Made by a program: the position numbers and the translations under genes. A DNA stretch of 64,000 nt from the IMG/VR virus record IMGVR_UViG_3300022200_000031, positions 1-64,000 of that record. The stretch is one strand, 5' to 3'. Of the stretch, positions 652 to 60,910 are shown one piece after another. Each line of letters begins with the position of its first letter. The first letter of the stretch is position 1. Source of the DNA: a virus. The notes under the pieces are model-generated. The model was not told the origin of the DNA, did not search any database, and saw only the letters and a program-made list of their open reading frames with translations.

Positions 652-2022
652 ATGTTATCGTTTCGTACTTACCTAAAAGAGGCTGCTGATTCAATGCTTG
701 AAATAATTAAAGGACTCGACTTCACAATCAAATCTGCCAACGACAGAGAGATGGTTGTAATTGTTAAGGCCGCTGATCGTTTTGGAGCTAAGGCAGAACT
801 AGAAAAGATTCTAACCAAGTCCAAGATTGAATTCAAGGATGGTGTTAAGTCGTCTTCCTCTTCAGATATTAAGACTACTGACACGATCTATGATGGTAAG
901 AAGTATAGATTCTTCTACAAGCCAAAAGGTTCAGGTGGATCTGGTGCTGGTGCTGAGGTTACAGCATTGGGTGAATGCTTCCAAGCATATGCATGCTGCG
1001 CTCGTCAGCTGAACGGTCGTCCATTGGAGTCTGGTGAGGAAGTATTCGAGATTCTCGGTAAGGGTAATTCAAAACATATTGATGCTGATCGCACTCTTGA
1101 TCAGTGTCGTAAACTGGATGCAGAGTGGATCCATTCTGGTACAGTAATTGCAAATGCGTTCCATGGTGAGTTGGGCACAGGTCAATATAACTTCCATCGT
1201 GGATCAAAAATGGTTAGTATGATTGAGGCTGAGTACAACAGACTAAAGAAACAGGAAGGTATTAGACTCAATATCAATAAATGGAATCCAGCTGACATTT
1301 GGGTGGCTAAGGACGGATTTAAGTTTCCCACATCTAAGTGGACCTCCCTTGGAGAATACAACACGTGGATTCTTGAGCAATTCAAGGGTAAGAACTTACT
1401 AGGTGTTTCTCTGAAGAAGGTTCCATCTGGCAAACCTAAGAAAGAGATCTACAACGAGACTGCTAAAGGTCTCGATATTAAATTCCTTGACTATCAAATT
1501 GTTCCTGCACGCAAAGATTTCTTCGGAAGTGATTTATCGAAAGATGTTTATATCGATTACAAAGATCACGGTAAGAAGATGCGTATGCAGATTCGCACCT
1601 TCTCTGCTGGTATGTCTGGTTGGCAGGGTGAGATTAAAGGTGCAACTGCAGCTGGTGGTAAAGTAGGTGGTGGTAATCTTGAAGAGGCTATGACTCTAGC
1701 TGGTATTCCTCCTTCTGCGTTCATTGATCAGTCATCTGCAAAGGCGGTTGCTCGTGCTAGAACGAAGGCAGCCAATGTTAAGATGTTCACCGAGTTCTAC
1801 AAATATCTTTCAAAGGATAAAAGATCTATTCAGGCTCTGATCCCTGAGATTCAAACTGTTATAGAGAACAACAATGAGGGTTGGTTCTATAGCAAATTTC
1901 TTTCAATGCAGTATCTGTATGTTATTCTGAAGAGTGGCAAGCAAGATAAAGTAATGCAGAATATTGCTCGCATTGCTGCCTCCGCTACAGATGTATCATC
2001 AGTTTTTTACAAGTACAGCTAA
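652..2022 (+). CDS. Putative internal virion protein with capsid-targeting N-terminus
   Basis: A 456-residue protein. The first ten residues, MLSFRTYLKE, fit the T4 internal-protein capsid-targeting pattern (MKTYQEFIAE in IPIII), with a gp21-type L-x-E cleavage site after E10. A Ser/Gly-rich linker at about 78-105 separates a small N-terminal domain (about 15-75) from a larger C-terminal domain that I cannot assign to an enzyme family. It follows a late promoter motif, and the next gene starts 1 nt after its stop. I infer that it is packaged in the head and possibly ejected with DNA. Confidence 0.6.
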   Translation: MLSFRTYLKEAADSMLEIIKGLDFTIKSANDREMVVIVKAADRFGAKAELEKILTKSKIEFKDGVKSSSSSDIKTTDTIYDGKKYRFFYKPKGSGGSGAGAEVTALGECFQAYACCARQLNGRPLESGEEVFEILGKGNSKHIDADRTLDQCRKLDAEWIHSGTVIANAFHGELGTGQYNFHRGSKMVSMIEAEYNRLKKQEGIRLNINKWNPADIWVAKDGFKFPTSKWTSLGEYNTWILEQFKGKNLLGVSLKKVPSGKPKKEIYNETAKGLDIKFLDYQIVPARKDFFGSDLSKDVYIDYKDHGKKMRMQIRTFSAGMSGWQGEIKGATAAGGKVGGGNLEEAMTLAGIPPSAFIDQSSAKAVARARTKAANVKMFTEFYKYLSKDKRSIQALIPEIQTVIENNNEGWFYSKFLSMQYLYVILKSGKQDKVMQNIARIAASATDVSSVFYKYS

Positions 2023-2023
2023 T

Positions 2024-3265
2024 ATGAAATCATTCAGTAATTACCTAACAGAAGAAAAGAACACTCATATGACTCACATTGAGGACCAGGTCCTTGATGG
2101 TGGTGTTAAGGGTGCCCGTGATGCTATCATGGCATTGCGTTCCCTAAGAGATATGTTGGCTGGCCATACAAAGGGTCATGTTGATGTAACTGTTAAGTGG
2201 GATGGAGCTCCAGCGGTCTTTGCTGGTATCGATCCAGGTGATGGTAAGTTCTTTGTTGCTAAGAAAGGCATCTTCAATAAGAGCCCTAAGGTTTACAAGA
2301 CCAATGCAGACATCGATGCTGACACCTCTGGTGATCTGAATGCCAAACTGAAAGTTGCATTGGCTGAATTATCCAAGCTGGGGATCAAGAGTGGCGTCTA
2401 TCAAGGAGACATTATGTTCACCCAGGCAGACCTTGCTGTTGAAGCAATTGATGGTGAGAAGTATGTTACATTCCATCCAAACACTATTCTGTATGCTGTT
2501 CCAGCAAACACTCCAGAAGCGGCCGCAATTAAGAAAGCAAAGATTGGTGTTGTGTGGCACACATACTACGATGGTAAGACCTTTGAGGGCATGAAAGCAT
2601 CCTATGGGGTTGATGTATCTAAGTTCCGTAAGGTATCATCTGTGTGGGCAGTGTCTGCCAATCTCCACGATCTATCCGGTACAGCAACACTAACAGCTAA
2701 AGAGACGAAAGAAGTGACAGCTGCTCTATCCGTTGCTGGTAAGATCTTCCAAAAGACAGCATCTAATATTCTAAAAGAGATTGAGACAAACAAAGAACTT
2801 AATCTACAGATCAATACGTTCAACAATACGTATGTTCGTCAGCGCATGAAGATTACCAATACCACCAAGCATGTGAAAGAACTCGAGCATTACATTACAG
2901 CAAAGTATGATCAAAAGATTGCTAGTATGAAGTCTCCTGCAGGAGCTAAGAAGTGGGAAGACGCAAAAGTAGAAGCCCTGAAGTTCTTCAAACGTCATTC
3001 TACTAATGAGATTGCTCAGGTATTTGAATTACAAAAAGCTATTGTTACCGCAAAAGAAATTATTATAAATAAGCTAAACAAGCTAAATAGAATGAGCACA
3101 TTTGTCAAGACCCACAATGGGTTTCGAGTTACCGGCGCAGAAGGCTTTGTAGCGATTGACAGATTGAGTGGTGGTGCAGTGAAGTTAGTTGATAGGCTTG
3201 AATTCTCAGCTAACAATTTTAGTACTGATGTAATTAAGGGATGGGACTCACCAAGTAGAGGCTAA
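2024..3265 (+). CDS. Capsid-targeted nucleotidyltransferase/ligase-like protein (DUF6267-like)
   Basis: A 413-residue protein from ATG 2024; the frame stays open upstream into the previous gene, but the targeting sequence MKSFSNYLTE starts here. Residues 53-65 contain V-x-V-K-W-D-G-A-P, a K-x-D-G motif like motif I of DNA/RNA ligases and capping enzymes, with K58 the candidate adenylylated lysine. A later G-V-Y-x-G-D-I segment (about 124-130) and K-I-G-V-V-W resemble ligase motifs III and V. The family resembles a conserved unknown family of T4-like phages. A ligase-fold enzyme carried in the virion is my inference. Confidence 0.6.
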   Translation: MKSFSNYLTEEKNTHMTHIEDQVLDGGVKGARDAIMALRSLRDMLAGHTKGHVDVTVKWDGAPAVFAGIDPGDGKFFVAKKGIFNKSPKVYKTNADIDADTSGDLNAKLKVALAELSKLGIKSGVYQGDIMFTQADLAVEAIDGEKYVTFHPNTILYAVPANTPEAAAIKKAKIGVVWHTYYDGKTFEGMKASYGVDVSKFRKVSSVWAVSANLHDLSGTATLTAKETKEVTAALSVAGKIFQKTASNILKEIETNKELNLQINTFNNTYVRQRMKITNTTKHVKELEHYITAKYDQKIASMKSPAGAKKWEDAKVEALKFFKRHSTNEIAQVFELQKAIVTAKEIIINKLNKLNRMSTFVKTHNGFRVTGAEGFVAIDRLSGGAVKLVDRLEFSANNFSTDVIKGWDSPSRG

Positions 3266-3272
3266 ACAATTA

Positions 3273-4193
3273 ATGTTATCTTTCAAAGACTTTCTCGTCG
3301 TCGAACTGAAACCAGGCGAAGACGAATATATTAAATACCGCAACCAGAAGCGCCGCCGTGGTGCCATGGATGAATCTTTCACTGCCGATGTTATTCATGA
3401 GCTTCTTTCCGAAGAGAAAGATCTCAGCAAGCTAGTTGTACTTGCACGCCTCGGTCTTGTTGATAATGTCTCAAACTTCAAGCGCGTCCTCAAGAAGCTA
3501 GATTCAGAAAAGGTCCTCACCCCAGAAGAGCGTGAGGTCATCTATTCAACCTTCAATAAATTTGCTGAAATCGTAACAAACGATAATACCATCTACCAGA
3601 AGGTTCGTAAGATCGTCAAGGAAGGTACAGAAGAAGATCTGGCCGAGGGTCCTCTTGTTGTCACCAAAGCTCAGGCAAACAACATGCTGATGAACTTCAT
3701 CAGAGACGCTCTCAAGAATGGTAAGGAAGCTGATCTCGAGAAACTTGCTGCTGCAATTGGCAAGAAGATGACCGTTAAGGGTCAGAAAGTAGTCTTTGAG
3801 GGTGAAGAGATCAATGTAGACGAGTTGTTTGAAGCTGTCCTGGATATCCGTACTCGCATTAAGAAGAAGCAGCAGCTTCGTAAGATGAAGTCAAAGATTA
3901 AGATGGGTCGTCGCCGCGCAATGATGAAGAGAGCGAACCCAGAGAAATTAAAGCAGCGCGCTCAGAAGAGAGCTCGTATGGCTGTATTCAAAAAGCTAGC
4001 TAAGGGTAAGAGCAAAGATGAAATGTCTTACTCAGAGCGTAAACAAGTTGAAAAACGCGTTGAAGCAAAGAAGAGCCTGGTCAAGCGCCTAATGAAGAAG
4101 ATACTTCCAAAGGTGCGTAAGGACGATCAGACTCGTAAGCGTATTGTCGGTCCTGCACCAGATACTCAGGCCTCCAGACCATCTGCAAAGTGA
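3273..4193 (+). CDS. Very basic putative internal virion protein
   Basis: A 306-residue protein. Its N-terminus MLSFKDFLVVE is a variant of the targeting sequence of the neighbours. Residues about 35-190 are mixed helical. From about 195 the chain is extremely Lys/Arg rich (KKKQQLRKMKSKIKMGRRR and similar) up to the C-terminus, which suggests DNA condensation or neutralisation inside the capsid. Comparable basic proteins occur in cyanophage-type T4 genomes. The gene lies 7 nt after the previous stop and belongs to the same transcription unit. No catalytic motif seen. Confidence 0.55.
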   Translation: MLSFKDFLVVELKPGEDEYIKYRNQKRRRGAMDESFTADVIHELLSEEKDLSKLVVLARLGLVDNVSNFKRVLKKLDSEKVLTPEEREVIYSTFNKFAEIVTNDNTIYQKVRKIVKEGTEEDLAEGPLVVTKAQANNMLMNFIRDALKNGKEADLEKLAAAIGKKMTVKGQKVVFEGEEINVDELFEAVLDIRTRIKKKQQLRKMKSKIKMGRRRAMMKRANPEKLKQRAQKRARMAVFKKLAKGKSKDEMSYSERKQVEKRVEAKKSLVKRLMKKILPKVRKDDQTRKRIVGPAPDTQASRPSAK

Positions 4194-4199
4194 TTTATT

Positions 4200-5129
4200 A
4201 TGAAGAGTTTTTCCCAGTACATTACAGAAGCCAATAAAGAAGTTGTCTTTGCGTTTGGTAGATTCAATCCACCAACAATTGGTCATGAGAAGCTAATCGA
4301 TAAAGTAGCATCTGTTGCTCGTGGCAACAACTATAGAATCTATCCTTCTCATTCTTCTGATGGTAGTAAGAACCCGCTTGAGTTTACTCAGAAAGTGAAG
4401 TTCATGCGCAAGATGTTCTCCAAGCATGGAAGAAACATCATGGCGGATCAGGGAATCCGTAATGCATTTGATGCACTGGTTAAGTTGTATGACCAAGGGT
4501 TCAATAAAGTTACATTGGTTGCAGGTTCGGATAGAGTTACAGAATTCCAAACTGCCCTAAATAAGTATAACGGCAAGAAAGCCCGTCATGGTTTCTATAA
4601 CTTTGAGGGTGGCATTAATGTTGTCTCTGCTGGTGAAAGAGATCCAGATGCAGAAGGTGCAACTGGTATGAGCGCCTCTAAGATGAGAGCAGCTGCTGGT
4701 AAAGGAGACTTTGATGCATTTGCAAGAGGCTTGCCACCAAGTTATAAAGAAGGACAGGCATTGTTTAATGCTGTTCGTAAGGGGATGGGTCTGAAAGAAG
4801 AAACAGATATCCGTCGCCATGTAGAATTTGCACCGGTATCAGAGCAACGCGAAGCCTATGTTCAGGGCGAGTTGTTTGGTGTTGGTGATGTTGTTGTCAT
4901 TAAGGAATCAGAAGAAGTGGGCCAGGTAGTACTACTTGGTTCAAATTATGTTCTGGTTGAGATGGCGGATGGCAAAAAGGTTCGGAAGTGGCTTGATGCA
5001 GTTGAAAAGCTGGATGAGACTACAGAGAAGAAAGATATTAAAGAACAAAAGTCATTGGGTAAGTCCTATATGGCTACTAAGAAGAAAGAATCATATTCTT
5101 CATTTGCAGATTTCATAGGGAGAAAATAA
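4200..5129 (+). CDS. Capsid-targeted cytidylyltransferase-like (HxGH-type) protein
   Basis: A 309-residue protein. It has targeting sequence MKSFSQYITE, then a nucleotidylyltransferase fold: GRFNPPTIGH at about 20-29 is the (T/H)xGH nucleotide-binding motif, AGSDRV at about 108 a core strand-loop, and SASKMR at about 155-160 the ISSTxxR-type motif. Relatives are NMN or pantetheine-phosphate adenylyltransferases and glycerol-phosphate cytidylyltransferases. Substrate cannot be told. A small beta-rich domain (about 215-270) and a Lys-rich tail ending SSFADFIGRK follow. Its stop overlaps the next ATG. Confidence 0.7.
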   Translation: MKSFSQYITEANKEVVFAFGRFNPPTIGHEKLIDKVASVARGNNYRIYPSHSSDGSKNPLEFTQKVKFMRKMFSKHGRNIMADQGIRNAFDALVKLYDQGFNKVTLVAGSDRVTEFQTALNKYNGKKARHGFYNFEGGINVVSAGERDPDAEGATGMSASKMRAAAGKGDFDAFARGLPPSYKEGQALFNAVRKGMGLKEETDIRRHVEFAPVSEQREAYVQGELFGVGDVVVIKESEEVGQVVLLGSNYVLVEMADGKKVRKWLDAVEKLDETTEKKDIKEQKSLGKSYMATKKKESYSSFADFIGRK

Positions 5130-6511
5130 TGGAGCGTTTTACCAACTATTATAGAGCCAAGGGTTCTTACTCGAAAGCGGGGTTTGAAGCCAAGAAGGCT
5201 GCCAAGGGTGATAAGTCAGAAGACCGTGAAGTCGGTACTGATTCTGTTGTGCAGCATTTTGCATCTATGACTCCTGGCCAAGATAGTTCGTGTACTGATG
5301 AGAAAGCTCCATATCCTCAGACCGAATCTGTTGATGAGGCTCTGGTAACAGATATGGATTCAATGATTGCAGCTAAGCTCGCCAAGTTGAAGAAGGCCGG
5401 CCGTATCAATCAATCCGAGTGGATGACACTGAATAAGATGCGTACATCTAATCCTAAAGGCGCTATGTCTCGTATTGATATGATGATGAAGCAAATGAAG
5501 GAAGATGTTGATCTCGATGAAGCATCTCATGTTGTTCACATCACCTCTACCGATAAGTCTGGTAAGAAGGAAATGCGTACAGGCCATGTAGTTGCACAGT
5601 CTAAGCAGTCTGCAATTAACATCGCTAAGAAGCACTATCAGGATCAAGGTCACACTATTCATGCTGTACACTATGGCACTAAGCGTACTCCTGTGAAGGA
5701 AGAAATTGAAGAGAAGACTCTTACTCCTGCCGAAATGAAGAAGCGCGAAGAAATTGCTCAGGCAATTGAAAAGGATCAACCTGATATGCCAATGGATAAG
5801 AAGATGGCTATTGCTACTGCTCAGGCTAAGAAGGTTGCAGAAGCGATGACTCCAGATCAGAAGGCAAAGCGCCTTTCAATGATCCGTAAAGCACACACAA
5901 AGGTTCAGAAGCGTGATGCTGCAGCACAGAAGCGTGCCGAGCGTGATGCTAAGCGTGGTATCAGTAAAGACCGTGACTACATGGATGAGTCTGTAAATGA
6001 ATTGCAGGAAGCAATGTCTCATGCAGAGAAGGTTAAGTTCCAGAAAGTTGGCATCGAGCTGAAGAAGTATGGTGCTACCAGTGGTGGTATCGACAAGAGA
6101 ACATTCCAAGACATTGGTCATATGTTTGACTTCCGCACTCGTACAGCAGATGGTGATGAGCCATCTAACCAACAGATTCTTAATGCAATCCTCCAGCAGG
6201 ATACAGATGTTCGTGATAAAATCATGGACATTGTCACCAACACGTTTGGTACCAAATGGCGCAGTACCCGTCCATCTACTAAAGAAATCTTTGGTAAATT
6301 TGGTGAGTCTGTTGAAACAGATAAGAATAAACCACCTTTTGATGGTCCATACAAAAAGCGTCCAGCTACCACAACCGATAAGTCTGGTGCTAAGCACACT
6401 CCATTGTCACGTGCTCGTCACCTGGCCCGCCAGGCTATGTTGAGACGTGAAGAACTGGAAGCACATGGTCCTGTTGAATTGAAAAGCTTCAAAGATATGT
6501 TGGAAAACTAA
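5129..6511 (+). CDS. Putative internal/head virion protein, repetitive and charged
   Basis: A 460-residue protein beginning MERFTNYYRAKGSY, a looser version of the F-x-x-Y targeting motif. It is made of low-complexity charged segments (Met/Lys/Glu rich) separated by short conserved boxes such as EIAQAIEKDQPDMPMDKKMAIATAQAK (about 210-236, seen in several T4-like phage structural proteins), and ends ELKSFKDMLEN, which again resembles the targeting sequence. Helical, no catalytic motif. The start overlaps the previous stop (TAATGG). Function inferred only from context. Confidence 0.5.
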   Translation: MERFTNYYRAKGSYSKAGFEAKKAAKGDKSEDREVGTDSVVQHFASMTPGQDSSCTDEKAPYPQTESVDEALVTDMDSMIAAKLAKLKKAGRINQSEWMTLNKMRTSNPKGAMSRIDMMMKQMKEDVDLDEASHVVHITSTDKSGKKEMRTGHVVAQSKQSAINIAKKHYQDQGHTIHAVHYGTKRTPVKEEIEEKTLTPAEMKKREEIAQAIEKDQPDMPMDKKMAIATAQAKKVAEAMTPDQKAKRLSMIRKAHTKVQKRDAAAQKRAERDAKRGISKDRDYMDESVNELQEAMSHAEKVKFQKVGIELKKYGATSGGIDKRTFQDIGHMFDFRTRTADGDEPSNQQILNAILQQDTDVRDKIMDIVTNTFGTKWRSTRPSTKEIFGKFGESVETDKNKPPFDGPYKKRPATTTDKSGAKHTPLSRARHLARQAMLRREELEAHGPVELKSFKDMLEN

Positions 6512-6845: not shown

Positions 6846-7415
6846 ATGTCAGTAGATAAACAAATTCAGGCGGTGGCGAGAGCATATGTAGAAATGCTGG
6901 AAGCTGCCAAGAAGAAAGAAGTAGAAATTAAGATGGATCCAGTTGGCCAGGAAGATGGCGATGTGGATAATGATGGTGATAAGGACTCTTCTGATGAGTA
7001 CCTCAAGAATCGCCGCGATACCATTAAGAAAGCCAAGAAGACAGATGGTAAGTCTGGCGAAACAGAAATGCAGGAAAAAAGCTGCAAGCGTAAGATGGGT
7101 GAATCTTATGAAGGTGGTACTATCATCGATGTAGAAGATGATCGCTTTGCTGTGCTGTTCGATGACCGTGTTGAGTGGATTGAAGAAGCTAAACAGGGTC
7201 CTAAGGCTGATGAGCAAGAGAAGCTCGAACCAAAAGCAAAGGGCGAAAAAGACTTCAAAGATGCACACAAAGTTAGTGTAGGCAAAGACGAAGAAAAAGA
7301 ACACGAAGAAGATACAGCTAAGATGACTGCTGGTGTAAAGGCTGCTCCAAAACGTCCAGGTGACAAGGGTCAGACTGAACCAATGAAGTCAGTAGAGAAA
7401 ACAACGGGACAGTAA
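6846..7415 (+). CDS. Acidic charged protein with EF-hand-like loop
   Basis: A 189-residue protein with a good SD (AAGGAGACAAT). Residues about 36-50 (DGDVDNDGDKDSSDEYL) match the D-x-D-x-D-G loop of EF-hand or dockerin calcium sites and recur in T4-like phage virion proteins. The rest is disordered and rich in Lys, Glu and Asp, with one short beta-like stretch (TIIDVEDDRFAVLFDDRVEWIEEA, about 97-120). Calcium binding is inferred from the motif. Probably a virion or internal protein, given its neighbours. Confidence 0.5.
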   Translation: MSVDKQIQAVARAYVEMLEAAKKKEVEIKMDPVGQEDGDVDNDGDKDSSDEYLKNRRDTIKKAKKTDGKSGETEMQEKSCKRKMGESYEGGTIIDVEDDRFAVLFDDRVEWIEEAKQGPKADEQEKLEPKAKGEKDFKDAHKVSVGKDEEKEHEEDTAKMTAGVKAAPKRPGDKGQTEPMKSVEKTTGQ

Positions 7416-51895: not shown

Positions 51896-52645
51896 ATGAT
51901 TGGTATTGTTGGTTATGGATTTGTGGGTAAGGCTGTCGAATACGGCTTTAGCAAAACAGATCATTTTATTGTCGACCCCCTACATTTTCCAGAACACTCT
52001 CTAGCTGATCTAGTTGAGCACAATCCCGAAGCGATCTTTGTGTGTGTTCCTACTGATGATGGGGATCAGTTTGCTACATTAACTGATACTCTTGATCAGA
52101 TTGCAGGTCTAGGCTACAAGGGTATTGTAGTAGTCAAATCTACTGTTCTTCCAAAGTACCTTGAGGGGTACAATGTTGTCTACAATCCTGAGTTTCTTTC
52201 TCGCCGTACTGCATTTGAAGATTTTGTAAAACCACACGTCTTAGTGATTGGTGGCCAGCAATCTAAAGCAAAGCGTGTATTGGAAATGTATATGAACTAC
52301 TCTGATGTTCGTTGTGATAACATCTTCCTCACTTCAGTTAATGCTGCCTCAATGGTTAAATATATGTTCAACACATACTATGCAACCAAACTAACCTTCA
52401 TGAATCAGATGTATGATGTGGCGCAGCAGGCTGGTGTACATTGGAATGATATCAAACAGATTCTTGGAAAACATCCATGGGTAGGAACATATCATCTTGA
52501 TGTCCCTGGTTATGAGGGGCGAGGTTTTAGTGGTCCATGTCTTCCCAAGGATACAAAAGCCCTTGCTGCTGAATATGATGTTGAATTGCTACATAAGGTG
52601 TTGGAGTTAAACGACAAATACCGAGATGAAAACTCTACTAGTTGA
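51896..52645 (+). CDS. UDP-glucose/GDP-mannose dehydrogenase-like protein, short
   Basis: A 249-residue protein. GYGFVGKAVEYGF is the NAD Rossmann G-x-G-x-x-G; VVVKSTVLP, YNPEFLSRRTAFEDF, SMVKYMFNTYYATKLTFMNQM (catalytic Lys/Asn helix) and GFSGPCLPKDTKAL (catalytic Cys) match UDP-sugar 6-dehydrogenases. The usual C-terminal UDP-binding domain (about 130 residues) is absent, so sugar binding may differ. SD AAGGAG. It opens the modification cluster and overlaps the first radical-SAM gene by 20 nt. Confidence 0.85.
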   Translation: MIGIVGYGFVGKAVEYGFSKTDHFIVDPLHFPEHSLADLVEHNPEAIFVCVPTDDGDQFATLTDTLDQIAGLGYKGIVVVKSTVLPKYLEGYNVVYNPEFLSRRTAFEDFVKPHVLVIGGQQSKAKRVLEMYMNYSDVRCDNIFLTSVNAASMVKYMFNTYYATKLTFMNQMYDVAQQAGVHWNDIKQILGKHPWVGTYHLDVPGYEGRGFSGPCLPKDTKALAAEYDVELLHKVLELNDKYRDENSTS

Positions 52646-53630
52646 ACTTTCAGAACAATGCAATCTCGATTGCTCGTACTGTGGTGTAAACAAAAGATCA
52701 AAACAGAAAGTAAATCTTGATCATGTTCTCGAGCAGTATAGTCTCCTGCGTTCAAAATACCCCGACGAGAAAATAAAGATAGACTTCTTCGGTGGTGAAC
52801 CTTTGTTGCAGCTTGATAGAATTAAGTCTATTATTGAGGCTACAGAGAACGACCCCAATCTTGAATATTTTATGCCAACTAATGGTCTTGTTTTAACACA
52901 AGAAATGGCGGATTATCTGATATCAAAGAATGTAAGAATGTCACTATCGTTTGATGGACTCTGGCAGGACGACAACCGAAAGCAATTATCCGGTAACGGC
53001 ACTCTCACCAAGTATATGGCAAAGAGTGATCTATTTAAGTCTCTCCCACTAGAATGTCATACTATGATCACTAGGGGAAACTATAATCTTCTTGAAAACC
53101 ACCTTTTTATCCAGGACTTAATCGGAAAAAATTCCGATCAAACGCTTGTCCGTGACAGAAATATATGGGATAATGACAGTGTAGATAAACTAAAGGCTGG
53201 TATCACTGAGTTGTTTGAGTGGTATAAAAGACATCCAGAAAAAGAGATGCCGGGGTTGATTAAACATTACCTTAGCCATATAGTAAGGTATAAGTATAAG
53301 AAGGTAGAGCTGAATACCTGTGGTGCTGGTGAGAAGATGATCACCGTTGCAGACGAAGACAAGGTTCTTCCCTGCGGTAGGTTTAGAAACGAACCAGACA
53401 CTATTGCTAGTATTCCTATCTACACAAAAATGTCTGAGTGTGAGACATGCGAAGTGAGACACTACTGTAAGAAGGGGTGTCTGTATGAACAGATACACAA
53501 CGGTGGACCTATTAAGGAGCTGTGTGACATCTACAAGCATATCTACTCAGAAGAATTTAATATGATCAAACAGTTGAAGAATGATCAGCACTTTGTAGGT
53601 GTATTGAAAAAGGAAATTATGGATGCTTGA
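52626..53630 (+). CDS. Radical SAM/SPASM maturase-like enzyme 1
   Basis: A 334-residue protein. C12-NLD-C16-SY-C19 binds the SAM [4Fe-4S] cluster; FFGGEPLL is the GGE motif and SLSFDGLW a core strand. The C-terminus carries a SPASM-type set: NTCGAG, LPCGRF, CETCEVRHYCKKGC, ELCDIY, enough Cys for two auxiliary clusters, as in anaerobic sulfatase and RiPP maturases. Begins inside the dehydrogenase end. Target unknown; see the 54966 product. Confidence 0.88.
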   Translation: MKTLLVELSEQCNLDCSYCGVNKRSKQKVNLDHVLEQYSLLRSKYPDEKIKIDFFGGEPLLQLDRIKSIIEATENDPNLEYFMPTNGLVLTQEMADYLISKNVRMSLSFDGLWQDDNRKQLSGNGTLTKYMAKSDLFKSLPLECHTMITRGNYNLLENHLFIQDLIGKNSDQTLVRDRNIWDNDSVDKLKAGITELFEWYKRHPEKEMPGLIKHYLSHIVRYKYKKVELNTCGAGEKMITVADEDKVLPCGRFRNEPDTIASIPIYTKMSECETCEVRHYCKKGCLYEQIHNGGPIKELCDIYKHIYSEEFNMIKQLKNDQHFVGVLKKEIMDA

Positions 53631-53841
53631 TGATAAAGACAAAGCGAATGCATCGTTGTTTAATGCTGCTGCCCATCTAACAGAGGCAGCAAAGTATATG
53701 TCTGACATGGATAAGGGGATCTCACTAAAGATCTTTGCCATGGCAGATAAGATCCTTTCCATTATTGATGCCCCCCAACCAAAGTTATCAAATAAAGAAC
53801 TGGATGATATTCTGGAGGAGATTCTAAATGCAGAAGACTAG
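53623..53841 (+). CDS. Small helical protein between two maturases
   Basis: A 72-residue protein, overlapping both radical-SAM genes (8 and 14 nt). NASLFNAAAHLTEAAKYMSDMDKGISLKIFAMADKILSIIDA and an acidic end (KELDDILEEILNAED). No Cys, so not an obvious thioether precursor. It could be a carrier/recognition protein (RRE-like role) or a regulator; no homology recognised. Confidence 0.5.
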   Translation: MLDDKDKANASLFNAAAHLTEAAKYMSDMDKGISLKIFAMADKILSIIDAPQPKLSNKELDDILEEILNAED

Positions 53842-54964
53842 AGGACCGCTGGTAATTGAGCTGACTACCAGTGCATTATGTGATCTGAATTGCACATATT
53901 GCTTTGAGGGTGAGAAGGTTAACAAGCAGAGGCTTGAGGACTTTGACACACTGTATGCTAGGATTGATGAACTAACTAGTGACCCATGGTTTAAAGAAAA
54001 CTACAATGGATTCACATTCTCATTTTGGGGCGGTGAACCGACACTTAACCACGAGTATATTGTCAAAGTAATCAATCACTTCAAGGACCATCCTGCAGTA
54101 GGTCAGTTTCATATCTACACCAATGGTTTCAACTTCAAGAATATGAGTCGAATTATTGATAATGTAGACACAACCAAACTGCATATTCAAGTTTCATATG
54201 ACGGTCAAATTACTAATGATATTTTCAGATTGACGAACAAAGGAACCTCCACAACTGAACAAGTACTAAATACCTTTGACAAATTGGCCAAAAGAGGTAT
54301 TGATCTTGCAATAAAGAGTACACTACCCACTACTTCTATTTTTAGTCTGTATGATACATGGCTAGAATTTGAAGGTTTGGTTAATAAATATAAGGATTAC
54401 CCAAACGTAAAAATTAACTTTGCGCCAACGATTGAGTATGCTATGGGACACACACCATTTGGTGGGGAAACGGATCATGCAGTTGCAAAGTTTGAAAAGC
54501 AGATGAAAAAGATCGCCAAAAAGGAGATCGAATTCTACAAGGAGCATGGAAGGTTCTTGTGCTCATGGTTTGGTAGCTCTGATAGTAAGACAAACTGTAC
54601 TGCTGGAGCTAGTATGATGGCAGTAGATGTGGACGGTGGAGTGTATGCTTGCCATGGTGCTCTCTACTCTCCTCAGAAGGAAGACATGAAATCAGCAACG
54701 ATTTTCGATAATGATTTCACTGTTAAGGTAAAAGACTTTGCGGACAAGCATGTTCCTGCAAGGCATAGGATTAATGACATCTGTAAGGGATGTGTTGCAA
54801 CATACTGTGCTGTATGCCCTGTTGCGGTATATGACGCAAGTAAGAAGGTTGACCATCTAGATAGATGGACAGATAGATGTGTGAATGGGTTGTGTAAGTT
54901 CTATAAGGCGTTTGGGCGATTAGATAGAGCTGTACAGCACCATATAAACAACTTGGAGAAGTGA
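53828..54964 (+). CDS. Radical SAM/SPASM maturase-like enzyme 2
   Basis: A 378-residue protein. LTTSALC18-DLN-C22-TY-C25-FEGEK, FSFWGGEPTLN, HIQVSYDGQ. SPASM region: NCTAGASMMAVDVDGGVYACHGAL, then ICKGCVATYCAVCPVAV and DRCVNGLCKFY, closely like anaerobic sulfatase-maturating enzymes (anSME; Cys/Ser to formylglycine) and peptide maturases. Directly precedes, by 1 nt, the Cys-rich fibre-like gene, its likeliest substrate. Confidence 0.9.
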   Translation: MQKTRGPLVIELTTSALCDLNCTYCFEGEKVNKQRLEDFDTLYARIDELTSDPWFKENYNGFTFSFWGGEPTLNHEYIVKVINHFKDHPAVGQFHIYTNGFNFKNMSRIIDNVDTTKLHIQVSYDGQITNDIFRLTNKGTSTTEQVLNTFDKLAKRGIDLAIKSTLPTTSIFSLYDTWLEFEGLVNKYKDYPNVKINFAPTIEYAMGHTPFGGETDHAVAKFEKQMKKIAKKEIEFYKEHGRFLCSWFGSSDSKTNCTAGASMMAVDVDGGVYACHGALYSPQKEDMKSATIFDNDFTVKVKDFADKHVPARHRINDICKGCVATYCAVCPVAVYDASKKVDHLDRWTDRCVNGLCKFYKAFGRLDRAVQHHINNLEK

Positions 54965-54965
54965 T

Positions 54966-55652
54966 ATGACAGTAGGTGTAGTTGACGCTGGTGATAATTG
55001 TACAGCAGCACATTGTATCAATCATGGTACAGGTACCACCACGTGTGTTGAACACCGCAGTACATGCTCAACCAACCGTGCATTGACATTCTCTGACTTT
55101 GCTCAGGGTGGCAACATTACTGCTACCCAGGTAGAGGAAATGAGAGTCAAGATTCGTGATGAGTTGGCTAGATACAACCTTCATGCTAACTACAACTACA
55201 CATTGTACCAGCCAACAGCTATTGGTGCTGGTGGTATTGTGGATGACACTCACTATAACAACCTGAATGATATGATCCGTCAGGCCTACGGTTCCGATAT
55301 CAATAAGGCTGCGGGTCAGCTGATTGATGATGCAGATTGGGATAACTTGATCTCATACTATAATGTGGTTCGCCAAAACTGCATCTGTAACACCGACTGC
55401 TCATGTAATAATGTGTGTGCGTGCCACAATGATTGTGATTGTAACTACAGCGATGAAAGACTGAAGGAGAATATTAAGTATCTTGGTCTGGTAAGTGATC
55501 TGAAAGTGTACAGCTTCAATTATATCTGGAACAAAGCAGAAGAGATGATTGGTGTGATGGCTCAGGATCTCATTGGTACCAAGTATGAGGATGCTCTTCG
55601 TAAAGACATTAACGGATACTACATGGTAGATTATAGTAGGTTGCCACTCTAA
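54966..55652 (+). CDS. Cys-array tail protein with S74 chaperone domain (candidate modified substrate)
   Basis: A 228-residue protein. The N-terminus has a Cys/His cluster (C12, H16, C17, H20, C27, H30, C34). The middle is helical with YNYTLYQPTAIG. Residues 139-159 form a strict array C-x-C-x-x-x repeated: Cys at 139, 141, 145, 147, 151, 153, 157, 159. Then YSDERLKENIKYLG...MIGVMAQDL is a peptidase S74 intramolecular chaperone of phage fibres/tips. Placed between SPASM enzymes and other modification genes; metal binding or Cys modification is inferred. Confidence 0.75.
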   Translation: MTVGVVDAGDNCTAAHCINHGTGTTTCVEHRSTCSTNRALTFSDFAQGGNITATQVEEMRVKIRDELARYNLHANYNYTLYQPTAIGAGGIVDDTHYNNLNDMIRQAYGSDINKAAGQLIDDADWDNLISYYNVVRQNCICNTDCSCNNVCACHNDCDCNYSDERLKENIKYLGLVSDLKVYSFNYIWNKAEEMIGVMAQDLIGTKYEDALRKDINGYYMVDYSRLPL

Positions 55653-56398
55653 TGGAAAAGACAATTACTAAAATCAATGAGGTTCTGTCTGAAAAGTTTG
55701 ACAGAGGTATCTCAATCAGAGTCACCAACACTCTCAGTATTCCTCCAATGGATGATGATAGTCAGTTCTCCATTAAATTTAAGTTTACTGTAAATGGTGC
55801 TGGGTACCGTGGATGGTATCTATCCAACACCGATCGTGCTGAGATAAATGAATTTGTGTATGACACCCTGCACGATGATGTGTTTGTTCTGCCTAATCTA
55901 GTGGACTTTGATGGTAAGTGTTATGCCTTGGTTGGTGATGGTATGATTACTGTTGAGCGTGAAACTAAGGTTCTTATGACCAACGATGTAGCGCCATCCT
56001 CAATTGTAGAGCTGCATGAAATGCTTGAGGACATTGATGTGTCGTCTATTGATATGTCGGATGTATATGACAGACAGGTTGGTTACAACTTCAGTGATGA
56101 AGAATGTATGCTGATGTATACCAACATCCCTGGTAATGTTCTCAGTGATGGTAGCGGTCGTTATACACTAATTGACTTAGATGTATTTAATATTCTCCCA
56201 ACGCGTTTCAAATATTGTCCTGCATTCTCTCTTCTATGTGATAGGATTGGTTTTAAGCAGTCTCGCCTTGAGGGATTCTGCGATAAGTATAATCTGGACC
56301 CTGAGATGTTCCTTTCCAACTACAAGCAGTTTCTTCAATTTGAGAAGGACATGGGTTCTGATGATGAAAAAATGATGGAGATTTTAACGGAGAAATAA
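55652..56398 (+). CDS. Hypothetical protein of the modification cluster
   Basis: A 248-residue protein, acidic. N-terminal beta half (QFSIKFKFTVNGAGYRGWYLSN; VLPNLVDFDGKCYALVGDGMITVERETKV), helical end (CDRIGFKQSRLEGFCDKYNLDPEMFLSNYKQFLQFEKDM). It starts on the last base of the previous gene's stop. No family recognised; possible fibre-assembly or virion protein. Confidence 0.5.
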   Translation: MEKTITKINEVLSEKFDRGISIRVTNTLSIPPMDDDSQFSIKFKFTVNGAGYRGWYLSNTDRAEINEFVYDTLHDDVFVLPNLVDFDGKCYALVGDGMITVERETKVLMTNDVAPSSIVELHEMLEDIDVSSIDMSDVYDRQVGYNFSDEECMLMYTNIPGNVLSDGSGRYTLIDLDVFNILPTRFKYCPAFSLLCDRIGFKQSRLEGFCDKYNLDPEMFLSNYKQFLQFEKDMGSDDEKMMEILTEK

Positions 56399-56400
56399 TT

Positions 56401-57003
56401 ATGATGGTATATGATTTAGCTATTGTGGAGGACCATGGTCACCACTATAGAGTGATTGGTACAACAAAGAATACATTAGACCGTATGGCCGGTGAAGACT
56501 ATATTAAAGTGTCATCGATGGCGTATGAAATGATTTGGCCTGCATTGCGAGATGGTAAGGAAGTAAGACTTCCTAAGGTTCTCCATACCAATGAAGTACT
56601 TCCCGGTGAAGTACAAATTATCGAACATAGTCCTGATGATGCAGATGCAGCACGCACTGCAGCACTGATCAAGGTACGCTCGCTTGTTGTCCCAGAGATG
56701 ACTAAAGAGTCAGGATTCACTCTTTATAACTTCATGATGATGAATAATGAGTTGGCAAGTGAAGGATACTTCATTACTAATAATAATCGTGAAGAAAAGT
56801 ACATTGAGATCATCGAAACAGGCAATGAAAGGCTAATTGAAACCCTTGAGATGTACCTAGAAGCTAAGGATACCCTTGACCGGGCGGCCTCAATGAAAGT
56901 TCGGTTGGATAAGTTCCGTAAAGAAATCGGCCGAATGGATGCTGTAGATGATATTAAGACGGCTACCGACAATTTCTTGGCTACATTCTATACCTCAAAG
57001 TAA
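56401..57003 (+). CDS. Hypothetical protein of the modification cluster
   Basis: A 200-residue protein. N-terminal alpha/beta part (MVYDLAIVEDHGHHYRVIGTTKNTLDRM; GEVQIIEHSPDDADAARTAALIKVRSLVVPEM), C-terminal long helices (LETLEMYLEAKDTLDRAASMKVRLDKFRKEI). No Cys. Function unknown. Two nucleotides after the preceding stop, so the same transcript. Confidence 0.5.
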   Translation: MMVYDLAIVEDHGHHYRVIGTTKNTLDRMAGEDYIKVSSMAYEMIWPALRDGKEVRLPKVLHTNEVLPGEVQIIEHSPDDADAARTAALIKVRSLVVPEMTKESGFTLYNFMMMNNELASEGYFITNNNREEKYIEIIETGNERLIETLEMYLEAKDTLDRAASMKVRLDKFRKEIGRMDAVDDIKTATDNFLATFYTSK

Positions 57004-57008
57004 TATGA

Positions 57009-57824
57009 ATGTCCGCTGTTGTATATCACTCAAACGATCATAAGAAGATCAATGGTACTCTCTTCTATTGTTTTGAGTACTATGTACTGCTAAAAAGATA
57101 CATTCCAGGCCTGCAGTATATCCTTCTCAATACTTCCGATGAAGATCTTCAATGGATGAAATCTATCTTTATTGAGAAGTATAACTTTGATCATGCTTAT
57201 CTTAATGACATCACTAACCTAACAAGGCTTACAGATTTTGTTAGGTTGTCGGTTGATAATGTTCTAATCCTTGATATTCATACTTATAGTAGAGTAAAGG
57301 ACTTTCTCGGAAAGGCTCGATCAGTTCGTGTGTATAGTAATGAGGAGCACAACTACCTGAACGCTAAACCCCATCATGTGTTCTATGGGTTCTACGACTA
57401 TCAGACATTCAATAAAAAAACTAGAATCAAATTATATGCTGACATACACAAGAGGTTTCCTAATAAAAGAAACAAAGTGTTTGTTACGTCATTAAATGCA
57501 GACAATGATTATATTGTCAATCAGTTAGGATTAGATCCATCGAAGGTATTTGTAAAAAATCTAAACAGTCACAATGAGAATATGTATGAACAGGTTGGTG
57601 AGATGATCTACTGGCATAGTTCACATACAGATACAAATAACCGAGCAATAGTGGAGGCATACATCCATGATATTCCTCTGACCATACACTTCAATGGACA
57701 CTATCATGATAGCATCTATGAGAGATCTAACACCATTGCTAATGGTGGTTTGCAGGAAATGTTTCTTGATCAGTCTGATATACTAATACAGGACTTCATT
57801 AATGATTGTACAAATACCAAGTAA
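57009..57824 (+). CDS. Glycosyltransferase-like protein, paralog A
   Basis: A 271-residue protein. The order of boxes (GTLFYCFEYYVLLKRYIPGLQYILL, VLILDIHTY, GFYDYQTFNKKTRIKLYADIHKRF, KVFVTSLNADNDYIVNQLG, RAIVEAYIHDIPLTIHFNGHYHDS) resembles GT-B type transferases, the last like the E-A-x-x-x-G-x-P nucleotide-sugar end with the motif weakened. Homologous in layout to the next gene. Acceptor unknown. Confidence 0.5.
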   Translation: MSAVVYHSNDHKKINGTLFYCFEYYVLLKRYIPGLQYILLNTSDEDLQWMKSIFIEKYNFDHAYLNDITNLTRLTDFVRLSVDNVLILDIHTYSRVKDFLGKARSVRVYSNEEHNYLNAKPHHVFYGFYDYQTFNKKTRIKLYADIHKRFPNKRNKVFVTSLNADNDYIVNQLGLDPSKVFVKNLNSHNENMYEQVGEMIYWHSSHTDTNNRAIVEAYIHDIPLTIHFNGHYHDSIYERSNTIANGGLQEMFLDQSDILIQDFINDCTNTK

Positions 57825-58701
57825 GTATGAGCTCTGCCTAACCTACTCTTGGGGTCCTATCGATCAGGGTATGTGTGGACACATATTTGAGTGTATTGAA
57901 TACTACTTCATTCTGAAAGAACATTACAGTGTGTGTATATTCATTCCTGAGCCACTCAGCAAGAAGTTCATAGAGGATACTGTTAGGGACAAGTATGATT
58001 TCACAGAAGAGGAAACAACGGACCTTTTCGATAATACTATCTTTGGCAATCATCCTAAGATTCTGAAGGGAAGTAATGTACTGTTAACGGATGCTGGGTT
58101 TGGAAAGATGACTAACAGACATCTATTGTTTGATAACATCATGGCTTTTCCATGCGCCGATATGTCATTCAAACAAATGGAAGGTATTACTGTATTCCAG
58201 GATGACCGCATGTATGGTACGGATGCCAAATGCACAACCCATCACTATGTAAAAAAGATTCTACTAGATCGTTATAAGACAATTGGTGATAGTGTTATTG
58301 ATACTAACCTTGTATATGCTACTAAGAATGCAAGAGGGCTTGATGAGTCCATCTACACAGAGTTGGAGCAGTACCCAGGAAACTTTCTGCTGTTGACTAA
58401 TACAGAGATTAAGGGTATACTATCCGATCGTTATACACAGGAAGAGATGCCTGTGAAGAATCTATTTGAGAAGTTTAGTACATACATCTATACTCCTGTA
58501 GGAAAGAAGTATGATTGCAGTCCTAGATTCTTGGTAGAATGCAAGCACTATGGTAAAAATGTTATATTCCATAACATTGACTATTGGGATGTTGATCATG
58601 GTTTGAAGTGGAGAGTCTATGACATCGAGTACGATTATGATTCACTACTTCTTAGATCGGATGATAGTATCATAGAATTAATAGGAGACATCATTGGATA
58701 A
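57802..58701 (+). CDS. Glycosyltransferase-like protein, paralog B
   Basis: A 299-residue protein. GHIFECIEYYFILKEHYSVCIFIPEPLSKKFIED parallels the previous protein; KGSNVLLTDAGFG, NLVYATKNARGL and SPRFLVECKHYGKNVIFHNIDYWDVDHGLKWR (E-x-x-x-x-G-x-x-V) continue the GT-B-like scheme. Overlaps its paralog by 23 nt. Tandem duplication with divergence is likely; enzymatic role inferred. Confidence 0.5.
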   Translation: MIVQIPSKYELCLTYSWGPIDQGMCGHIFECIEYYFILKEHYSVCIFIPEPLSKKFIEDTVRDKYDFTEEETTDLFDNTIFGNHPKILKGSNVLLTDAGFGKMTNRHLLFDNIMAFPCADMSFKQMEGITVFQDDRMYGTDAKCTTHHYVKKILLDRYKTIGDSVIDTNLVYATKNARGLDESIYTELEQYPGNFLLLTNTEIKGILSDRYTQEEMPVKNLFEKFSTYIYTPVGKKYDCSPRFLVECKHYGKNVIFHNIDYWDVDHGLKWRVYDIEYDYDSLLLRSDDSIIELIGDIIG

Positions 58702-59296
58702 TTATTGTCTCACTGTAACATATAAATGTCAGTGGCATTGCCCATACTGCATTACTGATACACACTCTAAGAGTATAGAGTATGATCAGGTACTAGACAA
58801 CATTAAAAGGATACCCGATCGTGCTCATGTCTCCCTTAGTGGCGGAGAACCTGGTATGTTACCAACAGGAAAGATCATAGAGGTTATTAATAGACTGCGT
58901 GAGAAGCAATGTGTGGTACAGGTTAATAGCAATGGGTTGATTTTTAAAAGACCCGCTATTGTTGATATGGTGGACTTCATCTTCTACCATTGCAGTGAGA
59001 ACCTGGATATTGATGATGAGGTTGTAAAGGATTACCCTGATAAGACTCAGTACATGGTAGTTGTAACAGACAACAACATTGATAAACTCAGATCATTTTT
59101 GGATAAGCATAATGATATTCATATATCAATTTATGCAGCTAAAGAGGTCCCTGTCAATGGTAAGGTTGGCGAACATCTCAGTAAAAAGAACGCTATCAGA
59201 CTCGTGCGTGAGTTTAAGGATTACATCAAACCAGATGAGGTTCCACACATCCTAAATTTCAATGAGTATACTTTGCAGACAGAACACATTAAATGA
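58694..59296 (+). CDS. Minimal radical SAM enzyme 3
   Basis: A 200-residue protein with TTG start 58694 (AGGAG 6 nt ahead). C12-QWH-C16-PY-C19 and HVSLSGGEPG form the radical-SAM core, then VQVNSNGLIF; no C-terminal auxiliary-cluster cysteines. Such short enzymes usually need partner proteins. Overlaps both neighbours. Confidence 0.82.
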   Translation: MDNYCLTVTYKCQWHCPYCITDTHSKSIEYDQVLDNIKRIPDRAHVSLSGGEPGMLPTGKIIEVINRLREKQCVVQVNSNGLIFKRPAIVDMVDFIFYHCSENLDIDDEVVKDYPDKTQYMVVVTDNNIDKLRSFLDKHNDIHISIYAAKEVPVNGKVGEHLSKKNAIRLVREFKDYIKPDEVPHILNFNEYTLQTEHIK

Positions 59297-60297
59297 TTAA
59301 TAATTATACATTTCCTTTAATTGATAAAGATGAACCTATATGTCAGCGCGCTAAACTTGACACAGGGACTTTCTGTAATTATGAGTGTTCTTTTTGTTAC
59401 TATATTGATCGCCTGCATGAGAAGACAGATCTGGATGTGGTAAAACAGCGTGTGGATTATATCTATGAATGTGGTATCCGCGAAGTAGATCTTAGTGGGG
59501 GTGAATCTTCTGTCCGTACTGATTGGTTTGAGCTGCTGGACTATTGTAAGTCAAAGGAAATGTCAGTCAGTACGGTGACTAACGGATACAAGTTTGCTGA
59601 CCATGATTTTATGAAAAAGTCAAAGGAGCATGGATTGCAGGAGATTCTGTTTAGTGTACATGGGCCCAATAATGACATCCATGATCTTGTAGTTGGAAGA
59701 AAAGGAGCATTTAAGCGAATCATTAAAGCAATTGAGAATGCCCATGATCTAGGAATACTGGTTCGTATCAATTATGTTGTTAATCAACATAGCTACAGTC
59801 TAACAGATGAGTTTGTGTGCATGGTTGATCAGGTGAAGCCATATGAACTGAACTTTCTCACACTAAACTTCTTTGGTTCCGCTAACGAGTATCTACCATA
59901 CAAACTGTCTACTACTCATATCAAACACTGCATTGATATTGTTGACGTTCCTATTATTAATGTAAGGTATGTACCATATTGCTATATGGAAGGGTACGAG
60001 AAGTATGTCTGCAACACGTTCCAGCATATCTATGACAGATACGATTGGAATATGGCAGTGTATGATCAAAGAATAGATCCGGAAGTGTATAAAAAAGATC
60101 CTCTGGATGCATTATATAAGCAAGCGCAGGAAGACCGTAAGCGCATGTACTATAAACCAGAACAATGCAAGGGATGTAAGCATCTCCTAATATGTGATGG
60201 GTTGGAGAATGTAGTTCATGATGATGTAATGCCAACAGAAGGACCAGTGGTGAAGGAGATCAATCACTACAGGAAGGAATACTATGCCAAAGTATAG
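59293..60297 (+). CDS. Radical SAM enzyme 4
   Basis: A 334-residue protein. GTFC28-NYE-C32-SF-C35-YYID, VDLSGGESSVR, SVSTVTNGYKF, EILFSVHGPN. The C-terminus holds PYCYMEGYEKYVCNTF and EQCKGCKHLLICDG, a SPASM/twitch-like Cys set for an auxiliary cluster. Overall like MoaA/PqqE-type peptide or sugar-nucleotide modifiers. ATGA-type overlap with the previous gene. Confidence 0.87.
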   Translation: MINNYTFPLIDKDEPICQRAKLDTGTFCNYECSFCYYIDRLHEKTDLDVVKQRVDYIYECGIREVDLSGGESSVRTDWFELLDYCKSKEMSVSTVTNGYKFADHDFMKKSKEHGLQEILFSVHGPNNDIHDLVVGRKGAFKRIIKAIENAHDLGILVRINYVVNQHSYSLTDEFVCMVDQVKPYELNFLTLNFFGSANEYLPYKLSTTHIKHCIDIVDVPIINVRYVPYCYMEGYEKYVCNTFQHIYDRYDWNMAVYDQRIDPEVYKKDPLDALYKQAQEDRKRMYYKPEQCKGCKHLLICDGLENVVHDDVMPTEGPVVKEINHYRKEYYAKV

Positions 60298-60910
60298 TAT
60301 TCTAATTCCCACTCATAATAGACCTGAACTGTTTCAGAGATGTATTGCCAGTGTACAGAGAGGTATGCTTGGTGCTGACTACGAGATTATAGTTAATAAT
60401 GATTCACGAGATATTGAGGAAGTAGAAAGATATAACATTAAGTACTACTACATGCGCAATGATAATCTTGGTATGATATACAAGTTTCTATTTGATAGAG
60501 CAAACGGTGAGTATGTGTACTACATGGAAGATGATGATATTATGGATCCAAACTTCTATGAGCGCATTAAGTTATTCAACGAGGATATTATGTTTGGCAA
60601 CTATGTTCCTTTTGAATGGAATAAGTCATTCATTGAGTATATGAGATCAAGACCACAATCATCAAAGGAAGATTTCCTGGAAACATTTGATCCACACCAT
60701 TTCCAACTGTGCCAGATTATGTTTCGGAAATCTGCATTGGCAGACGCTGATTTTCCTACCGACAACAACCTACAGAATGATTTCCTTTTATTTGAGAGAC
60801 TGCAGGGTTCGTTTAGAGTAGTAAACAACTTCTTCTATAAACAAACAATTGATGGTGGTGATAATATTAGCTTCAGCTACCTCAATAAGGATCCAAGATG
60901 GACTTCATAA
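60284..60910 (+). CDS. Glycosyltransferase family 2
   Basis: A 208-residue GT-A enzyme. YSILIPTHNRPELFQRCIASVQ is the nucleotide-binding start, IIVNNDSRD and YVYYMEDDDIMDP (D-x-D metal motif), and a DNNLQNDFLLFERL-type C-terminal acidic helix. It lacks membrane segments, so it probably glycosylates a soluble acceptor, possibly a virion protein or a nucleotide-linked sugar. Overlaps the adjacent radical-SAM genes. Confidence 0.88.
   Translation: MPKYSILIPTHNRPELFQRCIASVQRGMLGADYEIIVNNDSRDIEEVERYNIKYYYMRNDNLGMIYKFLFDRANGEYVYYMEDDDIMDPNFYERIKLFNEDIMFGNYVPFEWNKSFIEYMRSRPQSSKEDFLETFDPHHFQLCQIMFRKSALADADFPTDNNLQNDFLLFERLQGSFRVVNNFFYKQTIDGGDNISFSYLNKDPRWTS

Follow-up and report, generated by a model that had tools for sequence, protein, structure and literature searches.

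The window analysed here, bases 1–64000 of a 78,847-base IMG/VR virus record, carries from position 652 onwards a run of genes whose products share a short N-terminal sequence. Sequence comparison makes it highly likely that this decapeptide tag, complete in three proteins and altered in a fourth, targets them to the phage capsid and is processed there by the prohead protease gp21. Delivery of this cargo into the host, argued by analogy with T4, is less certain, and we consider it somewhat probable.

In the genes at 652, 2024 and 4200, and with an altered cut site in that at 3273, the ten opening codons would encode a T4-type capsid-targeting sequence. The decapeptide would dock its protein on the prohead scaffold core, chiefly via the aromatic residues at positions 4 and 7, and gp21 would cleave after E10 (L/I-x-E), freeing the mature protein in the head before DNA packaging. 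The cargo, comprising an RNA-ligase-like DUF6267 protein, an NMNAT-like nucleotidyltransferase, the 652 protein and the basic 3273 protein, would most likely exit together with the DNA when a cell is infected. For the window phage, we infer docking, cleavage and ejection, as well as the enzymatic roles in the host. The genes are listed below, with the strict tag defined as M..[FY]..[FY][LIV].E.

652–2022, forward strand: gene for a 456-residue protein (phrog_1462); strict tag MLSFRTYLKE, codons at 652–681
2024–3265, forward strand: gene for a 413-residue DUF6267 protein, RNA-ligase-like (KWDG motif); strict tag MKSFSNYLTE, codons at 2024–2053
3273–4193, forward strand: gene for a 306-residue Lys/Arg-rich protein (isoelectric point (pI) 10.1); partial tag MLSFKDFLVVE, codons at 3273–3305
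4200–5129, forward strand: gene for a 309-residue NMNAT/cytidylyltransferase-like protein (phrog_395); strict tag MKSFSQYITE, codons at 4200–4229
5129–6511, forward strand: gene for a 460-residue basic protein; N-terminus MERFTNYYRAKG, with F4 and Y7 and no L/I-x-E; not a full bearer

The decapeptide and its conservation

In T4, the first ten residues of the internal protein IPIII are enough for incorporation, with residues 4 and 7 chiefly responsible for targeting and residues 8 and 10 for processing; an aspartate at position 10 blocks processing and leaves targeting intact, and gp21 cleaves at L/I-x-E (PMC9026906). An earlier note on this DNA had compared the window proteins with the T4 start MKTYQEFIAE, which matches the database entries of ipII and ipIII, and all five N-termini that it quoted, MERFTNYY of the 5129 protein included, are present. 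Aromatic residues occupy positions 4 and 7 in 5/5 of them (652, 2024, 3273, 4200 and 5129). The gp21 cut site, with L/I at 8 and E at 10, occurs in the proteins encoded at 652, 2024 and 4200. The 3273 protein agrees at positions 4, 7 and 8, while V9-V10-E11 replaces L/I-x-E, shifting the glutamate to position 11; its nearest relative begins MQSFKDYLTVD, and a short relative in phage C48C1 begins MLSFKQFVSE. Thus, of the four shared T4-type tags originally proposed, three are full and that at 3273 is partial with a shifted cut site. The 5129 protein had also been counted as cleaved cargo, which its lack of a cut site does not bear out, and we rejected it as a full bearer: in its nearest relative, MAKRFTDYYRAKGSYSK, conservation extends past the tag, again without L/I-x-E. 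The 'large set' of ejected proteins envisaged in the note accordingly shrinks to three clear bearers and one partial one.

The strict motif is present in 3/101 predicted genes of the 78,847-base record, where the composition of the individual proteins predicts 0.0103. This whole-record search for further bearers, which the earlier note had proposed, returned only the genes at 652, 2024 and 4200 and no further occurrence among the 101 proteins. The DNA form of the pattern likewise gave three forward and no reverse matches in the record, and the reversed pattern gave none. The decapeptide is encoded differently among the genes (for example, Ser as TCG, TCA or AGT) and is therefore not a DNA repeat. 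For the gene at 2024, the listed open reading frame (ORF) begins at TTG 1964, and the ATG at 2024 comes immediately after the stop codon of the preceding gene.

Among named phages, the closest relatives of the DUF6267 gene occur in C48C1, Methylophilales phage Melnitz, Stenotrophomonas phage DLP_6, cyanophages and pelagiphage HTVC008M. Among non-redundant relatives, the core motif directly precedes the DUF6267 domain in 53/73 and the nucleotidyltransferase in 37/46, whereas internal 35-residue windows contain it in 3/719 and 16/506 cases, respectively. One homologue scan had the tag in its query; a recount restricted to loci from scans with the mature parts finds the tag in 48/66 DUF6267 and 35/39 nucleotidyltransferase relatives. 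As choosing sequences by the motif would itself produce apparently conserved columns, we also examined columns at set distances before the domain, irrespective of the motif, in 55 DUF6267 and 45 nucleotidyltransferase sequences; 18/73 and 1/46 representatives, respectively, are excluded because of their linker or length. In both families conservation falls on positions 4, 7, 8 and 10, while positions 5, 6 and 9 vary: F4 in 39/55, F/Y/H7 in 46/55, L/I8 in 51/55 and E10 in 51/55 DUF6267 sequences, and F4 in 39/45, Y/F7 in 37/45, L/V/I8 in 38/45 and E10 in 38/45 nucleotidyltransferases. The tags of the window and of its nearest relative (locus L016) share F4, Y7 and E10 despite divergence (MKSFSNYLTE/MLRFNSYLTE and MKSFSQYITE/MKGFADYLTE).

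The tag extends well beyond these families. In 241 loci from scans without the tag in the query, with near-identical sequences counted separately, 125 distinct ORFs carry the strict tag near their start. They fall into 19 unrelated families, 14 of them with at least two members, by single-linkage blastp clustering at E 1e-4, at which distant relatives may end up in separate families. Eleven permuted arrangements of the same residue classes gave 0 or 1 ORF each. Including the scan with the tag in the query raises the count to 135 tagged ORFs, again in 19 families and all on the operon strand. Two of the tagged families match phage polynucleotide kinases, one being a P-loop kinase (phrog_505, E 1e-11) and the other a HAD-type protein (phrog_415, E 4e-5); several others have no assigned function. 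In the complete phage C48C1, 9/204 ORFs have the motif near their start; six of these nine form one cluster at 57–68 kb, to which the DUF6267 and nucleotidyltransferase genes belong, and the remaining three are one helicase and two apparently spurious ORFs. In C48C1 (L003, 13622–13688), the annotated cytidyltransferase start lies too far downstream, and the frame read from an upstream GTG, VIKNFSQYLLEEE, holds a tag.

The processing machinery can be followed in the relatives. The gp21 family (PF03420) was found in 6/6 named relatives and in 9/10 IMG/VR records. Their scaffold proteins contain L/I-x-E above shuffled expectation in 6/6 cases (11–17 seen, 5–7 expected), among them C48C1 (17 versus 7.3) and Melnitz, the weakest (11 versus 6.8), an excess to which coiled-coil periodicity could contribute. 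The single portal protein checked was not enriched (3 seen, 5.2 expected).

Virion proteomes of relatives and competing readings

For cyanophage S-CREM2, whose virion proteome was determined by mass spectrometry (MS) (PMC10665884), the pattern was fixed before the genome search, though the tagged cytidylyltransferase had already been seen. Strict matches at gene starts are ORF6, a SAM (S-adenosylmethionine) hydrolase (MKDFDSFLEE), ORF136 (MQTFSMFFSE) and ORF154, the cytidylyltransferase (MKNFSSFLTE), all of them MS-detected; a fourth strict-pattern site lies inside nrdA. When GTG starts are included, ORF14, an APH-like kinase (VKRFDAFLTE), joins them and is also MS-detected. The tag is thereby found in 4/52 MS-detected virion proteins versus 0/168 other ORFs (Fisher p 0.003), or in 3/52 with ATG starts only (p 0.013). 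Three of the six non-structural virion proteins listed by the authors carry the strict tag; in a fourth, the Cas9-like ORF12, residues 18–26 read RFASFMAEA, and the two untagged ones are large 'endolysins'.

The nucleotidyltransferase family of the 4200 protein recurs in other cyanophage virions. The S-SCSM1 NMNAT, found by MS in the virion (PMC9602691), has the N-terminus MKSFLQFLKEAAESG, beginning MKSFLQFLKE. In S-SM1, the T4-GC190 citidylyltransferase is present in the virion (PMC3037559). Orthologues begin MKSFSQFLTE in P-SSM2, MKKFSAFLSE in Syn9 and MKSFFQFLSE in S-SM2. Pooling S-CREM2 and S-SCSM1, 4/5 strict gene-start matches were detected by MS, where the base rate is 0.19 (P 0.005); the denominators of that rate are annotated features (221 and 293) and not proteins alone.

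Several observations weigh against capsid targeting. Neither gp21 nor the head genes, the scaffold gene among them, were found in the 78,847-base partial record; since tail and replication-type genes are present and gp21 is not, the record is, judged from its gene content, a fragment of a T4-like phage. Relaxing the motif weakens the S-CREM2 contrast to 5/48 versus 3/168 (p 0.015), 4 of the 52 MS-detected ORFs lying outside the ORF set used for this count, and the S-CREM2 authors allow that enzymes may be co-purified contaminants (PMC10665884). The neighbours of the S-SCSM1 NMNAT are annotated as virion proteins and are untagged; among them the relative of the 652 protein, an MS-detected virion protein, begins MATVAETLL, so that the tag is not required for virion residence. 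Conversely, S-SCSM1 gp030 (NC_070962, 44215–44535) begins MKTFKQFMSE and has no MS virion annotation, and a UvsW-type helicase of C48C1 begins MKDYSHFMVE; the tag is thus insufficient as a predictor. The core motif is present in only 8/57 representatives of the 652 family and is missing from the DUF6267 proteins of S-PM2 and Syn1.

Among the alternatives, the one that survives best, though we consider it unlikely, accepts the tag as genuine and has the proteins act within the prohead, in the core or scaffold, in DNA condensation or in assembly, and not as host effectors. Consistent with this, all five window proteins encoded from 652 to 5129 are basic (pI 9.3–10.1), T4 IPIII influences head assembly (PMC9026906), and the case for ejection comes by analogy with T4. 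By contrast, the NPPTxGH and KxDG motifs, each kept in 46/46 sequences, suggest catalysis, and a SAM hydrolase, the P-loop kinase and the HAD-type protein are among the families tagged elsewhere. A much less probable reading is that the peptide docks onto another phage complex, for example in replication or tail assembly, and that virion presence reflects contamination. The operon does lie near replication and nucleotide-metabolism genes in relatives, and contamination is the caveat raised for S-CREM2; against this, the peptide obeys the T4 rule at each of the four positions, with processing accounting for E10, strict gene-start matches in the two phages with proteomes are detected well above the 19 percent base rate, and T4's own matches are two internal proteins and gp61.1. 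Chance resemblance, or descent from one duplicated ancestral gene, can be practically dismissed with 3 motifs seen versus 0.010 expected, 0 or 1 permuted matches versus 125, and mature parts that a blastp cut-off of E 1e-4, possibly dividing distant relatives, sorts into 19 unrelated families, even if two carrier families are syntenic and fused in S-PM2 and some tags may share an origin. The capsid-targeting, gp21-cleavable N-terminus put forward in the earlier note is thus well supported by its conservation, the 19 families, the virion proteomes, and gp21 and the scaffold in relatives.

The cargo proteins and their possible use

The earlier note had left the proteins unidentified; two prove enzyme-like. 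The 2024 protein belongs to DUF6267 (E 7e-104), whose KxDG (motif I; K58, D60, G61) is invariant in 46/46 sequences, with EG(F/Y)VAID and AVK(L/I)VDR further along in most. Its AlphaFold model has a predicted local distance difference test score (pLDDT) of 74.8, falling below 50 over residues 355–413, the region of the putative later motifs. In a VIA search, the top seven rows were RNA ligases, the best being T4 Rnl2 (Z 6.8, root-mean-square deviation 3.1, 102 aligned; reliability mark 8), and a Foldseek search gave no match at E 0.001 or better. On sequence and model, we read the protein as putatively ligase-like.

The 4200 protein matches phrog_395 cytidyltransferase (E 6.2e-72) and contains the active-site signature GRFNPPTIGH, a type (NPPTxGH) found in 46/46 representatives. 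It scores 17.2 bits against PF01467, under the cut-off of 21, and NMN (nicotinamide mononucleotide) adenylyltransferase models are likewise under their cut-off; we assign it as a putative NMNAT-like nucleotidyltransferase. In S-PM2, the C-terminal part of DUF6267 and the nucleotidyltransferase share one stop-to-stop frame, and phrog_455 covers both, which suggests that the two work together. At this S-PM2 locus (L007, 14992–16771), DUF6267 is split over two reading frames, its C-terminal part being in-frame with the cytidyltransferase. Small cyanophage genes (Syn1_162, S-PM2p144) are labelled ribonucleotide reductase alpha subunit; phrog_4808, which bears the same name, matches the C-terminal domain of the 4200 nucleotidyltransferase, and the label of these genes is probably wrong.

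The model of the 652 protein has a pLDDT of 91, and about 50 over the first 10 residues, so that a well-folded protein is modelled with a low-confidence or disordered tail at the tag. Searches of Pfam, NCBIfam and PADLOC did not help to identify it. A fold search was dominated by residues 1–97, with Z of at most 7.6 to terminal nucleotidyltransferases (all below 8), and barely sampled the conserved main domain (98–456). The stretch NPADIW...SLKK recalls a PD-(D/E)xK nuclease, which we take as a resemblance only and do not claim. A tblastn search of 50,697 phage records matched neither the 3273 nor the 5129 protein; for 3273, one viral-contig locus matched.

The window tag resembles those of T4 IPI, IPII and IPIII in its ten N-terminal residues, aromatic at 4 and 7 with I/L8 and E10, in its basic cargo and in the presence of gp21 in relatives. 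Unlike the small T4 internal proteins, the window carriers have 300–460 residues and are partly enzyme-like, and many unrelated tagged families occur in relatives. The propeptide of T4 Alt differs from the IPIII-type tag. Alt, an ADP-ribosyltransferase, is likewise a head-carried enzyme cleaved by gp21 (PMC9026906), whereas no window protein was identified as an ADP-ribosyltransferase and the window tag is of the IPIII type. The cyanophage virion NMNAT/cytidylyltransferase belongs to the same family as the 4200 protein and is tagged in S-SCSM1, S-CREM2, P-SSM2, Syn9 and S-SM2 and MS-detected in S-SCSM1, S-CREM2 and S-SM1; the accessible parts of the S-SCSM1, S-CREM2 and S-SM1 papers mention no targeting peptide, and the window in addition has tagged neighbours. 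P1 DarA and Hdf and the ejection proteins of the giant phage SPN3US are also described as prohead-loaded and infection-linked; these belong to other phage groups and are likened here by loading only, not by targeting signal. A full-text search of one library found nothing on DUF6267, nor on capsid targeting combined with cytidylyltransferase. The type of label is known from T4; that ocean phages use it widely on large enzymes seems not to have been reported before.

A broader proposal, which we offer tentatively and consider less likely than not to hold in full, is that the decapeptide is a general cargo code for head loading and delivery with DNA in marine T4-like (Kyanoviridae-type) phages, effective for any protein that bears it and used by at least 19 families. 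The cargo across phages would form a pre-made kit against early host defence, of which the window phage would package ligase-like and NMNAT-like parts, acting before phage gene expression. Such a kit would comprise RNA sealing (DUF6267), end healing (the tagged P-loop kinase and HAD-type protein), supply of nicotinamide adenine dinucleotide (NAD; the NMNAT-like protein), a SAM hydrolase acting against restriction, and a Cas9-like nuclease whose tag is displaced. If RNA-ligase-like and NAD-synthesis-like enzymes are indeed packaged, this would suggest that the phage counters tRNA-cleaving and NAD-depleting immunity in advance. NMNAT-like, SAM hydrolase, kinase and Cas9-like enzymes appear in published virion proteomes of ocean phages, where they have hitherto been indistinguishable from contamination. 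A sequence rule sorting cargo from contaminants would make packaged effectors of marine T4-like phages predictable from the genome alone, and the question of which proteins are injected before transcription directly testable.

Control genomes and neighbouring genes

In the record and six relatives together, the DNA pattern gave 10 forward and 1 reverse matches, versus 2 and 1 for the reversed pattern; ten longer IMG/VR records gave 12 and 7 versus 1 and 2, with gene starts not distinguished. T4 contains exactly three matches, all at gene starts (ipII, ipIII and gp61.1), lambda and phiKZ contain none, N4 one, and KVP40 two, one of them a gene start. We did not accept the ATG pattern alone as a predictor across whole phage genomes, since it also matches non-starts (the interiors of S-CREM2 nrdA and S-SCSM1 VrlC and one antisense site) and N4 once, and counts were restricted to gene starts for this reason. 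T4 gene 61.1 (54 residues, hypothetical; NC_000866, 18966–19130) starts MKTFKEFIKED, a full tag match, and its product may be an overlooked T4 internal protein. The hypothetical KVP40.0066 (NC_005083, 39187–39834) also matches fully, with MKQFCNFLAEV.

A C-terminal version of the tag was prompted by the ends SSFADFIGRK (4200), SFKDMLEN (5129) and TFKEFLEYIE (S-SCSM1 gp279), and was dropped with such an end in 0/46 nucleotidyltransferase and 0/73 DUF6267 representatives. Downstream of the run lies one further gene with a virion connection:

6846–7415, forward strand: untagged gene; short-stretch relative of S-SCSM1 gp280, an annotated virion protein

In S-CREM2 (OR473000, 3837–13331, reverse strand), the SAM hydrolase, the Cas9-like nuclease, the APH-like kinase and two small proteins form an MS-detected cluster, two of them strict-tagged. 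Elsewhere in the window (52626–63622), and at a second locus (L002, 559–3155), a gene run with N-terminal CxxxCxxC-like cysteine motifs, spotted by eye, suggests radical-SAM enzymes.

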